A stretch of 38,287 nt of DNA from an uncultured Pirellula sp. Its GTDB lineage: Bacteria; Planctomycetota; Planctomycetia; Pirellulales; Pirellulaceae. The notes under the pieces are model-generated. The model had not been told where the DNA came from. It saw nothing but the letters and a program-made list of their open reading frames with translations, and ran no database searches. Position numbers and translations under genes: made by a program. This document shows, one piece after another, positions 240 through 7,595 of the stretch; within the stretch, counting starts at the first letter, position 1, and every line of letters starts with the position of its first letter. The stretch is from NCBI GenBank assembly GCA_903820735.1, contig CAIJIZ010000174.1:1-38287 (forward strand), in the 5' to 3' direction.

Positions 240-2006
240 TCACCGGCGAAAGTTTACGACATACAAATCGCCGTCCAGATAATATCGCCCCCAGTCCCAC
301 TCGACCACCAAACCCAACTCTCCATCGACTCCCTGCATCTCTCGAATCAAACTTCCACGCCTCCAAGCTGATGAGCCACTCGGCGGTGACCGCTTCGCAC
401 GATCTAATTCCCGCTCTGTCACCATCGGCGCGTTTCCTAAAGTAGCTTCTAACTGCCGATGATATCCCTGCGAAGATAACTCGTGATAACGCAAATCAAT
501 CTTCTTGCGCACCGCCCTTTGCAACTGCAAATCCGCTTTACTCTCCTTGGAACTCAACTGCTGAAGCAACCACAGTTTGCTTAGCCAATCAAGCCTTCCG
601 ACAAGCATCATCGGCAACTCGCTCGACGATTCTTCGCTGCGATGACTGGGCGAGAGGACCAACTGATTCAAGGTGGTCTGCCACTGCTCGATAATCTCCC
701 AAGCCTCCCTCGGTACATCGGCTTGCTGCTCTATCCAACGCTTAACCCCTCTCAAGTAACTTCGCGATATGTCCTTGGCTTTGTATTCATTCCCCGACCG
801 ATCACAAACCGAGCGCACCAACATCCAATCCCGCGCATATTCCCGAATCGCTTCGGTAACTCGCCGAAGCTCTATCGCTTGCTTGGCTTTCGATTGCTCT
901 ACCCAATCTAGCACTAGTGCGGTCGTTCCGAATCGCAACCACTGCGACTGTTGGCACATCCCTGAATCACCGATCGCCAATTCGATCCTCTGCACCGGCC
1001 GAAACAATCTTCCATACGAGCGAAAAGTCCAATCGGAAGAATCTAACAACTCCCGCAACAACGGATCGCATCGAAACATCGGCCGATACTTGTTGTAACT
1101 CCCAAACCCTATCACCCGATCCACCACCGCAGCGCGGAGGCTAATCCAATACCGCGATTCTTCATCCAAATAACCAGCACCATCGAGAATACAGCGTGAG
1201 GCTAAAAAAGCAGACAGCTTTTGCCTGTGCGGACGCAGTGCGACGACCCAAATCAACCCAAAAAAACAGGATACCAGCGGAAGATGCAACCAGCGAACAC
1301 CCCATGCTGCGAGTTGCAACTCCCAAACGCTCAAACGCATTCCCCACAACTGATTCCAACGACCTAAATACTCATGAACACTTAACCGTTGCTCACCATC
1401 ACCAACTTGATTCTCGCTTCCTACCTCATGCCCCCCAGTAGCAAGCCTGGTAACACAACGTGCGGTCCACATCGCGACGTACTTACATCCAACAAGTATT
1501 GCAAACCACCACATCACCGCTGCGCGATAAAAAACAGCGAGTGGAAAGAGCAAAATCAACCCCACCCACCAAGCGATCAACCATCCTCCGCTGGCGATCC
1601 GCATATCATACGATTCATGTTGCCCCATCGTATTCCCAGATGCATCCGCGTTCGCTTTCATCCAAGGACCCCGCCCCCCACCCCTGCTCAATACTGACGC
1701 TTCAGTCATCAACTGCTCGTTTGCAAGCTGATAGGCGACTAACTCCTTGGGACTCGACGTCTCAGGGGTAGCCAGCTCTAAAAGAGCATCGTTCGTATTC
1801 GCTGATGCTCCAAGCTCGAGAGACAAGCTTGATCCGTTGGCTAAGAACCATCGAAGCGGATTCTCACTTCTGGCTATCGGCATCACGCGGCGCAGCGAGA
1901 GTAAGATCGACTCGAACTCTTGAAGCGAATCTCGCTCCACGGTTTCACTCGAATCAGAAGCTCTACGGTAAAATTCCGTCTCAAGACCGATATAGCGTTT
2001 AAGCAA
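240..2006 (-). CDS. PafA/Dop-superfamily (Pup ligase/deamidase-like, carboxylate-amine ligase) protein with internal hydrophobic (predicted TM) insertion; ORF opens at 2084, preferred start is TTG at 2006
   Basis: Translation has LLKRYIGLETEF (PafA/Dop GIETEF), FLANGSSLSLE, LATPETSSPKELV, ADASGNTMGQHESYDM (PafA NNTDSAGNSYGCHENYLI), IGDSGMCQQSQWLRFGTTALVLDWVE, GRLDWLSKLWLL, IDLRYHELSSQGYHRQLE and PPSGSSAWRRGSLI (PafA PPEDTRAYFRGRCL). The ~110 aa between QHESYDMRIASG and LSAFLASR contains about 3 hydrophobic stretches (GWLIAWWVGLILLFPLAVFY, AVMWWFAILVGCKYVAMW, LPLVSCFFGLIWVVAL). Confidence 0.85.
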   Translation of the reverse strand: MLKRYIGLETEFYRRASDSSETVERDSLQEFESILLSLRRVMPIARSENPLRWFLANGSSLSLELGASANTNDALLELATPETSSPKELVAYQLANEQLMTEASVLSRGGGRGPWMKANADASGNTMGQHESYDMRIASGGWLIAWWVGLILLFPLAVFYRAAVMWWFAILVGCKYVAMWTARCVTRLATGGHEVGSENQVGDGEQRLSVHEYLGRWNQLWGMRLSVWELQLAAWGVRWLHLPLVSCFFGLIWVVALRPHRQKLSAFLASRCILDGAGYLDEESRYWISLRAAVVDRVIGFGSYNKYRPMFRCDPLLRELLDSSDWTFRSYGRLFRPVQRIELAIGDSGMCQQSQWLRFGTTALVLDWVEQSKAKQAIELRRVTEAIREYARDWMLVRSVCDRSGNEYKAKDISRSYLRGVKRWIEQQADVPREAWEIIEQWQTTLNQLVLSPSHRSEESSSELPMMLVGRLDWLSKLWLLQQLSSKESKADLQLQRAVRKKIDLRYHELSSQGYHRQLEATLGNAPMVTERELDRAKRSPPSGSSAWRRGSLIREMQGVDGELGLVVEWDWGRYYLDGDLYVVNFRR

Positions 2007-2013
2007 GCCGGGT

Positions 2014-2310
2014 CTATTCGCCGCTCTGCCGAGCGTCGACCTGCTCCAAAAACTCTTGGATTTGCGTCTGAGTATCTTCCGCAACGTACTGAACCCAAGC
2101 TTCTAAACGCCCGAGAGTACTCGATGGATTGCCACCCGTCGGTTTTACCTGATCGGCATCGGCCACAACTGTATTAGGCTTAACAGCGGCAGCCTGCACG
2201 GCCAACGACGGCGAAACATCATGCGCTTCTTCAACGCAATATTCCTCGCCATCGAGACTCATCAAGGATCCTGGTAAAACCAAGGCAATCGGAAAAGAAT
2301 CAGCACTCAT
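2014..2310 (-). CDS. Small Pup/UBact-like protein modifier candidate, C-terminus ...FLEQVDARQSGE
   Basis: 98-aa ORF with ATG at 2310 and TAG at 2016-2014. Low-complexity N-terminal half, predicted helical/acidic C-terminal segment LGRLEAWVQYVAEDTQTQIQEFLEQVDARQSGE ending Gly-Glu. Immediately upstream of the PafA/Dop-like gene, same strand. Confidence 0.65.
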   Translation of the reverse strand: MSADSFPIALVLPGSLMSLDGEEYCVEEAHDVSPSLAVQAAAVKPNTVVADADQVKPTGGNPSSTLGRLEAWVQYVAEDTQTQIQEFLEQVDARQSGE

Positions 2311-2389: not shown

Positions 2390-3676
2390 TTAGGCACTTT
2401 CTTTGCGTTGTGGCTGAGATTTCTTGGGGGCGATGCGCCCGAGTTTCTCGTCATAATCGATGGTGTACAGGGTTCCTTCTTCCTGCTCCGGCAAGTCAAA
2501 CATGATGTCCATCATGATTTCTTCGACGATTGAGCGAAGTCCCCGAGCCCCAACCTTTTTCGTGTGGGCTTTGTTGGCAATCGACCGCAACGCTTCTTCG
2601 GTAAACTGCAACTGGCAGTTCTCCATCCCAAACAACGCTTGATACTGCTTGATCAACGCATTCTTCGGCTCCGTCAAAACCTTGATCAACCCTTCGACGT
2701 CTAACGGAGTCAGAGACGTCACTACGGGCAATCTGCCGATTAACTCGGGAATCATACCGAATTCGAGAATATCATCGGAGTGAATGTGACCTAGCAGGGT
2801 CGCAACATCTTTCTCCTCTCGAACGGTTGCACCCGGACCAAACCCTAAAGACTTTTTACCAAGTCGCTTGCTGATGATCTCTTCGACACCGACAAAAGTA
2901 CCGCCGCAGATGAACAAGATATTCGTCGTATCCATCTGGATGTATTGCTGCTCAGGATGTTTGCGGCCACCTTGGGGTGGGACGTTCGCAACCGTTCCTT
3001 CAAGCATCTTTAGCAACGCTTGCTGTACACCCTCGCCAGACACGTCGCGAGTGATTGAGACGTTCTGACTCGTCTTGCCAATCTTGTCGATTTCGTCGAT
3101 GTACAAAATCCCCCGCTGGGCTGCTTCGATGTCAAAATCCGCTGCATGCAACAGCTTGAGCAACAGATTCTCTACGTCCTCACCTACATATCCGGCTTCG
3201 GTCAACGTGGTAGCATCACCGATGGCAAACGGGACGTTTAGCATTTTCGCAAGCGTCCGCGCCATGAGGGTCTTGCCGCTACCAGTCGGACCAACCAACA
3301 AGATGTTAGACTTCTCAATTTCAATATCCCCACCTTCCCAACCAGAACTCAATCGCTTGTAGTGATTGTGAACTGCGACCGCCAACGCCCGCTTGGTCTG
3401 AAGCTGTCCAATAACATATTGATCCAAGTGTTGGACGATTTCTCTCGGCGTCGGAATCTCCGAGAACAACTTCTTGCTCGGTCCGCGTCGCTTCTGCTCT
3501 TGCTCAAGAATCGATGAGCACAACTCGATGCACTCGCCGCAGATATACACATCGCCAGGTCCTTCAACCAATGGACCCACATCGCGATAGTTCTTCCTGC
3601 AAAACGAACAGTTCTTTTTCGTGTTGCCACTGCCGGTGTTGCGTCTTCCGGCTACCACGTCTTTACCTGACGACAT
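2390..3676 (-). CDS. clpX: ATP-dependent Clp protease ATP-binding subunit ClpX
   Basis: N-terminal C4 zinc domain (CSFCRKN...CGECIELC), Walker [16 protein letters not shown], Walker [12 protein letters not shown]-terminal [21 protein letters not shown]. Confidence 0.97.
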
Positions 3677-3989: not shown

Positions 3990-4307
3990 TCAATCAGAGC
4001 GACTCGGCTTCGTCGTATCGCTTTCCGATCCGATCGATCGCTGCTTTTCTAGCAACGCCTGAATCTTTCGGAATTCCTGTTCGTCCAAGTCACCCTCGGT
4101 GCGCATTTCTTCGAAATTCTTTCGAACCATCGCGTCTATTTGCAGGTTGTGAGCATTAATCCTACGCAGTCGTAATAACACATACAACGCGAACATACTA
4201 ACAACCACCAAACCTATCGCACCCAAAGTCAACCGAACAAAACTATCCCCAAAAAATTCTTGCCATGACCCCCAAGGAAAAAACGTGTTACTCATCGATC
4301 GAAACAA
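3990..4307 (-). CDS. Small single-TM protein of unknown function
   Basis: 105-aa ORF with one clear TM (LTLGAIGLVVVSMFALYVLL) and a charged cytoplasmic-like tail. Confidence 0.55.
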   Translation of the reverse strand: MFRSMSNTFFPWGSWQEFFGDSFVRLTLGAIGLVVVSMFALYVLLRLRRINAHNLQIDAMVRKNFEEMRTEGDLDEQEFRKIQALLEKQRSIGSESDTTKPSRSD

Positions 4308-5996: not shown

Positions 5997-7166
5997 ATGA
6001 ACCTGAACCACTCGATCACCTCCCCAAAAACATCCCAAGACTCCCAGTGGAAACTACTCGCCGAGCGAGTCCTCGATGGCGGATCAATCAGCCGTAGCGA
6101 AGCACTCGCCATCCTTGACTCACACGACGATGAACTCCTCGATCTCGTCGCCGCTGCCTTCAACCTAAGACACAAGTACTTCGGGAAAACCGTCCAACTC
6201 TACTTCTTGATGAACGCCAAAAGCGGCCTGTGCCCCGAAGACTGCCACTACTGCTCGCAATCGAAAATCTCCGACGCTCCCATCCCGAAGTACTCGATCC
6301 TCAATCGTGAGAAACTTCTCGACGGCGCTCGACTCGCCGCCGAACGCCAAAGCAAAACCTATTGCATCGTCATCTCCGGACGAGCCCCGAACGAACGCGA
6401 AATCAAAGCCATCGAAACGATCGTCCCAGAAATCAAACAACAGTACGGCTTGAATATCTGCGCTTGCCTCGGACTACTAACCGAATCCCAAGCCCAACGA
6501 CTTGCCGCTGCCGGGGTCGACAAAGTCAACCACAACCTCAATACGAGCCAAGACTACTACAAAGAAATCTGCACGACCCATACCTTCGAAGACCGACTCG
6601 AAACCCTCAAAAATGTTCGTAAAGCCGGATTGCAACTCTGCAGCGGTGGCATCATCGGCATGGGCGAATCCCGCAAAGATATCGTCGATATGGCTTTCTC
6701 TCTGCGTGAACTCTCCGTGGAATCAATCCCACTGAACTTCCTTCATGCTATCGACGGCACCCCGATGCAACACAAAGAGTACCTGACCCCTAGAGATTGC
6801 ATCCGCGCTCTGGCCATGGTGCGATTCGTAAACCCCTCCAGCGAACTTCGAATCGCAGGCGGTCGCGAACGACACCTTCGATCCCTGCAACCACTCGGCC
6901 TGTATATCGCCAATAGCCTCTTCGTCGGGGACTACTTGACCACCCAAGGACAAGCTCCCTCAGAAGACTACCAAATGATCCAAGATCTCGGATTCGAAAT
7001 TACCGGACAAGCCATCAGCCCAAGTCCGTCCGCCGAAAACCAACCTTGCGGCAACTCCTGCGAAAACTCATGTAACGGCTCCGCCACTTCCACAAGCAAC
7101 CCGAACGCAAACCAATCAGCCGAAAAATCAACGTGCAACTCTTCCACCCCAGGCTGCTGCGGGTAA
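5997..7166 (+). CDS. bioB: Biotin synthase BioB with Cys/Asn/Ser-rich C-terminal extension
   Basis: Radical SAM motif CPEDCHYCSQS, HNLNTS, CSGGIIGMGE, FLHAIDGTPM, RIAGGRE; tail CGNSCENSCNGSATSTSNPNANQSAEKSTCNSSTPGCCG. Confidence 0.95.
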   Translation: MNLNHSITSPKTSQDSQWKLLAERVLDGGSISRSEALAILDSHDDELLDLVAAAFNLRHKYFGKTVQLYFLMNAKSGLCPEDCHYCSQSKISDAPIPKYSILNREKLLDGARLAAERQSKTYCIVISGRAPNEREIKAIETIVPEIKQQYGLNICACLGLLTESQAQRLAAAGVDKVNHNLNTSQDYYKEICTTHTFEDRLETLKNVRKAGLQLCSGGIIGMGESRKDIVDMAFSLRELSVESIPLNFLHAIDGTPMQHKEYLTPRDCIRALAMVRFVNPSSELRIAGGRERHLRSLQPLGLYIANSLFVGDYLTTQGQAPSEDYQMIQDLGFEITGQAISPSPSAENQPCGNSCENSCNGSATSTSNPNANQSAEKSTCNSSTPGCCG

Positions 7167-7238: not shown

Positions 7239-7595
7239 ATGCCAAAACTAACCGTCGAAGGCCTCGGCGAATTCAACGTCCCACAAGGTAAACGACTTAT
7301 CCTCGCCCTGCGCGAAGAAGCAGGATCAGACCAACTGCACGCTTGCGGCGGAAAAGCACGATGCACCACATGCCGCGTCGAATTCCTCGACGGCGAACCA
7401 ACGCAACAAACCGTGGCCGAGAAAGAAATCCTCAACGCTCGCGGCGTGCATAACGCCCGACTAAGCTGCCAAATCAACTGCGACCACGATATGTCCGTAC
7501 GCATTATCAGCCGCCTCGAAGGCAGCGGCCGAAAAGATTGCGGCTCCCCCTGCTCCACCGAAATCGAACCACAACCCGTCGAGTGGGTGAAATAA
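7239..7595 (+). CDS. 2Fe-2S plant/mammalian-type ferredoxin
   Basis: HACGGKARCTTCRVEFLDG (CX5CX2C) plus a distal Cys in ARLSCQI; 118 aa; 72 bp after bioB. Confidence 0.9.
   Translation: MPKLTVEGLGEFNVPQGKRLILALREEAGSDQLHACGGKARCTTCRVEFLDGEPTQQTVAEKEILNARGVHNARLSCQINCDHDMSVRIISRLEGSGRKDCGSPCSTEIEPQPVEWVK

Follow-up and report, generated by a model that had tools for sequence, protein, structure and literature searches.

An uncultured Pirellula sp. encodes, directly before a membrane-inserted ligase of the PafA/Dop family, a 98-aa ORF that is real beyond chance and that is very probably, judging by its sequence, a Pup-like protein modifier. The two genes belong to a class predicted in 2008 (PMC2588565). 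We consider it highly likely that they form a tagging system, in a genus with no detected 20S proteasome, in which Glu98 of the modifier would be ligated to lysines of target proteins in an ATP-dependent reaction. The earlier note had read the small ORF as a Pup/UBact-type modifier beside a PafA-like ligase, and this core reading holds, the neighbour being a Pup_ligase family protein. The window, by which we mean the whole stretch of DNA analysed (38,287 nucleotides), carries the pair as follows:

2014..2310, minus strand: putative Pup-like modifier ORF, 98 aa, ATG start, with Arg-Gln-Ser-Gly-Glu-stop at its end
2116..2310, minus strand: variable, predicted disordered N-terminal segment of the modifier (residues 1-65), no conserved domain
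2014..2115, minus strand: conserved C-terminal segment of the modifier (residues 66-98 and stop), common to all orthologues, with a predicted helix (65-94) and a free GE tail
2014..2084, minus strand: 71-nt overlap between the 3' end of the modifier and the 5' end of the ligase, in different frames
240..2084, minus strand: membrane-type PafA/Dop-family ligase, 614 aa (Pfam Pup_ligase, E=1.4e-59)

The modifier ORF has the C-terminus ...EFLEQVDARQSGE, followed by the stop codon, and its last residues are QVDARQSGE. Two checks proposed in the earlier note, an orthologue alignment and a disorder prediction, both agreed with its reading. Conservation is highest at the C-terminus and ends exactly at GE, and the extended or variable C-termini that the note had named as contrary evidence were seen in no orthologue. 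The C-terminal ~32 residues align across orthologues nearly without gaps under the motif L-x3-[LIV]-x2-[IV]-x2-D-x7-[YF]-[LV]-x7-G-E-stop, with D79 almost invariant and G97-E98 invariant. In the AlphaFold model (mean pLDDT 59.6), residues 1-64 are unstructured, 65-94 form a helix and 95-98 a free tail. The N-terminal part had been suggested to be a new domain or targeting segment, an idea that finds no backing here: its length and sequence differ even between close relatives, and it is predicted to be disordered. The protein thus has the features of a Pup modifier in the sense of Iyer et al. 2008, namely small size with a G[EQ] end, adjacency to a pafA homologue (here the 71-nt overlap), and a helical C-terminal half with an extended tail in the AlphaFold model.

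The Pfam Pup model (PF05639) matched neither the window ORF nor any of 19 relatives scanned, and its sole match in the modifier's own genome (E=1.36) lies on a different contig. A profile comparison of the modifier with UBact-like proteins of other planctomycetes was not significant. Three other similarities were dismissed: VMAP-M8 (Pfam, E=0.16) and RhlB (NCBIfam, E=0.11) as noise, and a PDB cyclase matched by the modifier profile (E=0.0021), which involves an internal stretch.

Since the final 71 nt of the ORF lie within pafA, and both frames of the overlap are about equally conserved within the genus, conservation at genus level alone would not prove the ORF. One could suppose that the ORF is an artefact, its end conserved only because it shares its letters with the start of pafA, particularly as constraint outside the overlap is weak (dN/dS among close relatives is 0.17-0.86 outside vs. 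0.00-0.22 inside). We regard this as very improbable: the motif and GE end also occur in copies that do not overlap pafA (e.g. L048, L050, L065 and L066) and in ten copies unlinked to it, where no overlap is possible, and the 98-aa ORF is supported by these copies. When the ORFs of 150 aa or more in the loci were counted, only 1 of 436 ended in GE. A profile built with the genus excluded did not find the window ORF significantly in a genome-wide search. Within 720 bp around the pafA start, the same profile placed the window ORF at the top of 22 candidate ORFs, marginally (7.3 vs. 7.2 bits), and recovered the intermediates L042 (2.3e-6), L038 (2e-4), L039 (2.4e-4) and L040 (4.7e-4). Given these limits, the ORF is argued for by the series of relatives leading to it, by its place ahead of pafA, and by the copies elsewhere that are unlinked or do not overlap.

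The ligase begins at a TTG codon found at the same place in congeners, and the Pfam Pup_ligase match covers residues 73-598. Three of its features bear on the reaction it may catalyse:

1974..1988, minus strand: ligase GLETE (G33-E37), which fits the GxExE Mg/ATP motif
1815..1817, minus strand: ligase Glu90, at the catalytic Asp position (PafA D64 / Dop D94)
1230..1604, minus strand: hydrophobic membrane insertion (~residues 161-285), directly behind the HESY strand (HxNY)

Membership in the PafA/Dop superfamily is indicated by the Pup_ligase profile, the GxExE motif and the GS fold; the AlphaFold model (pLDDT 86.5) has Dop and PafA as its best PDB matches (E ~1e-21 and 3e-20), and two long hydrophobic helices, not clearly four, are seen in it. 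Most active-site residues are retained. E35, E37, E103 and H156 align with Dop E8, E10, E99 and H155, and the ligases share GLETE, E103, H156 and, in the C-terminal domain, the motifs KIDLRYHELS and PPxxSPAxRRGxLIRE. At the catalytic Asp position all 31 aligned relatives have Glu, and the position of Dop H241 is Glu368 in the window ligase and Gln in most relatives. NCBIfam places the protein about equally near PafA and Dop, far under both equivalog cut-offs (TIGR03686 for PafA, 122.7 bits against 551.3; TIGR03688 for Dop, 118.9 against 492.3). Its own genome holds only one PafA/Dop-family (Pup_ligase) gene. A second Pup_ligase match (G000:C388) turned out not to be a paralogue: it is this gene's own 3' end, placed on another contig.

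With Glu in place of the catalytic Asp, Glu368 at the Dop H241 position and near-equal equivalog scores, the sequence is compatible with a ligase or a hydrolase. The pair could then serve peptide processing or signalling, the enzyme acting on the modifier as a Dop-type hydrolase/amidase or coupling a small amine to the modifier's terminal Glu as an amide. Such a role would suit the overall resemblance to Dop as much as to PafA, the substituted Asp and the finding of a single PafA/Dop gene, but we think it improbable. Every modifier already carries Glu at its end, which leaves a deamidase without a task, and an amide would be absent unless something ligates the modifier. The enzyme also has no Dop-loop in our alignments, where the PafA alignment is continuous and the Dop alignment interrupted, and the first Glu of GxExE is 55 residues from the catalytic position, compared with 48 in PafA (4b0t) and 86 in Dop.

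Our next question was how regularly modifier and membrane-type ligase occur together. Among 398 genomes of the class, 44 had a Pup_ligase match, and 33 of these were counted as membrane-type from alignment A3 or, if outside A3, by a long match span or close kinship (by span only for at least four: G155, G290, G311 and G377). A modifier accompanies membrane-type PafA in 31 of the 33 sampled genomes: as a small GE-ending ORF directly upstream in 21, and unlinked, elsewhere in the genome, in ten (G323, G163, G287, G234, G363, G385, G350, G375, G127 and G115). In G267 the motif is divided between two contig ends, and in G273, which has membrane-type PafA, the profile search found no modifier. Twenty relatives without PafA gave partial matches only, none extending to GE. 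The relatives L034-L036 are Pirellula MAGs. In one genome, G243, the pair is present twice in full (loci L050 and L051), the two GE-ending modifiers beside their membrane-type ligases having different tails, VVVPDGGE and ANTQQQGE.

The unlinked ORFs were found with profile A2, which consists of the C-terminal 32 aa and was built without the unlinked group. Individually they are weak under A2 (E 1.4e-4 to 0.94), and we accepted all ten as modifiers because of their mutual similarity, common tail ([RK]SN[TV]xxDGE) and exact stop. In the ligase tree all ten cases fall in one clade (SH-aLRT 96); the modifiers of the nearest ligases outside it are linked, and their tails, RSDVAQAGE and RRANTQQQGE, are similar. 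The unlinked modifiers have no neighbours common across the clade.

Apart from the pair itself, gene order around it is little conserved: the only conserved partners are a clpX block in one sublineage and a local block in genus g7. Defence-system models gave no match. In the window, clpX adjoins the modifier:

2390..3676, minus strand: clpX, directly upstream of the modifier in the same direction, with 79 nt between

A 105-aa ORF at 3990-4307, with one hydrophobic stretch and no Pfam match over cut-off, is kept beside clpX in close relatives (cluster c7). Farther along, the window holds an ORF that is BioB-like by sequence (5997-7166), with an unusual Cys-rich C-terminal tail (...CGNSCENSCNGS...STPGCCG), followed by a ferredoxin-like ORF (7239-7595).

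The Pfam model for proteasome and HslV subunits (PF00227) matched nothing in the modifier's own genome (G000, 94% complete) or in the congeners G159, G213, G338, G341 and G361, a set that includes draft genomes as well as one single-contig assembly rated 100% complete (G338). Matches to PF00227 do occur in other genomes with membrane-type ligase and may be HslV or proteasome-like proteins. The model for the proteasomal ATPase Mpa/ARC (PF16450) was also unmatched; it is insensitive, having missed G216 and G260, which have proteasome-type loci. As no 20S proteasome subunit was found, tagging would have either a non-degradative outcome or one that relies on another ATP-dependent protease.

A fate-specific version of our main explanation holds that tagged proteins are degraded by ClpXP and that clpX, modifier and ligase form one operon. 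In mycobacterial Pup the disordered N-terminus is the site at which unfolding is initiated, and the disordered N-terminus of the present modifier could act likewise. Six genomes of the window's sublineage have clpX immediately upstream and co-directional, and the genus has no detected proteasome. However, the linkage is missing in other congeners (G159, G213, G338 and G361) and in the rest of the family, so that it may be chance gene order. On balance we find this version rather unlikely.

Putting the parts together, tagging by ligation could proceed as follows. The C-terminal helix of the modifier would dock on the membrane-inserted PafA-type ligase encoded directly behind it, ATP would activate the side-chain carboxylate of the terminal Glu98, and the activated residue would be joined to a target lysine. 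Deamidation is unnecessary, since the modifier is encoded with its terminal Glu already. The target proteins probably reside in or at the cytoplasmic membrane. The tag may alter what becomes of membrane proteins without having them degraded, or may feed them to another ATP-dependent protease, with ClpXP (whose clpX adjoins) and FtsH as candidates. The specific form in which a single membrane-embedded ligase and a disordered, Glu-ended modifier carry out pupylation of membrane proteins without a proteasome, with ClpXP (or FtsH) as the unfoldase and bacterial pupylation no longer tied to the 20S particle, is a possibility that we put forward tentatively.

How does this system relate to those already described? 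Pupylation as studied in actinobacteria is tied to the 20S proteasome. With the actinobacterial Pup-PafA-Dop-proteasome pathway, the Pirellula pair shares a disordered modifier with a C-terminal helix and terminal Glu, and a GS-fold ligase with the same core and C-terminal domain. It differs in having a modifier that Pfam Pup does not recognise, one enzyme instead of two, a membrane insertion, no detected proteasome and an unmatched proteasomal ATPase marker. The UBact-like, proteasome-linked Pups of other planctomycetes (L003-L005 and L077) have a comparable C-terminus, ...YLxxxxxxGG[EQ]; unlike the present pair, their loci have two PafA/Dop genes, and no significant profile match connects the modifiers. 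At UBact-type loci a neighbour (cluster c16) has hits to PF16450, the proteasomal ATPase domain, in L069 and L070.

Further tail types were observed among planctomycetes. Small ORFs in or near the proteasome-type loci L069, L070 and L075 end in RRNRSGQ, RRNGPGQ, RRNEPGQ or RRNQSGQ, which makes a third type. Four loci (L068, L071, L072 and L073) encode shorter PafA-like proteins of 465-501 aa, and in three of them a small ORF precedes the ligase, ending in RRNPSGE (L068), REYSSGE (L071) or RRCLSGE (L073); large WD40-repeat proteins are encoded close by, with Pfam hits in L068 and L072. These four loci look like a separate Pup-type system, possibly with a link to conflict systems.

The closest precedent is the computational account of Iyer, Burroughs and Aravind, who described Pup in the planctomycete Rhodopirellula and the myxobacterium Plesiocystis, accompanied by a PafA in which four TM segments follow strand 4. 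They saw no linkage to proteasome genes, and suggested that membrane proteins are tagged (PMC2588565). Single-copy planctomycete homologues have since served as an outgroup (PMC7947786). A literature search, with most subscription papers beyond its reach, found no experimental test of the membrane-type pair. The Pirellula system resembles the 2008 systems in its GE-ending small protein, the TM insertion after core strand 4 of PafA, and the absence of linkage to proteasome genes. What the sequences appear to add is that the modifier gene is unlinked in one ligase clade, that the window's genus has no detected proteasome or HslV subunit, that Glu is invariant at the catalytic Asp position, and that clpX adjoins in one sublineage; the insertion, modelled here as two long helices, also departs from the four TM segments of the earlier description.

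Because the modifiers of one clade are unlinked, searches confined to pafA neighbours miss them. The Pfam Pup model recognised 0 of 19 modifiers scanned. Modifier and membrane ligase make up a compact two-gene system for testing proteasome-free tagging. If the proteasome-free pair does tag proteins, protein tagging would serve another purpose in these bacteria than it does in actinobacteria.
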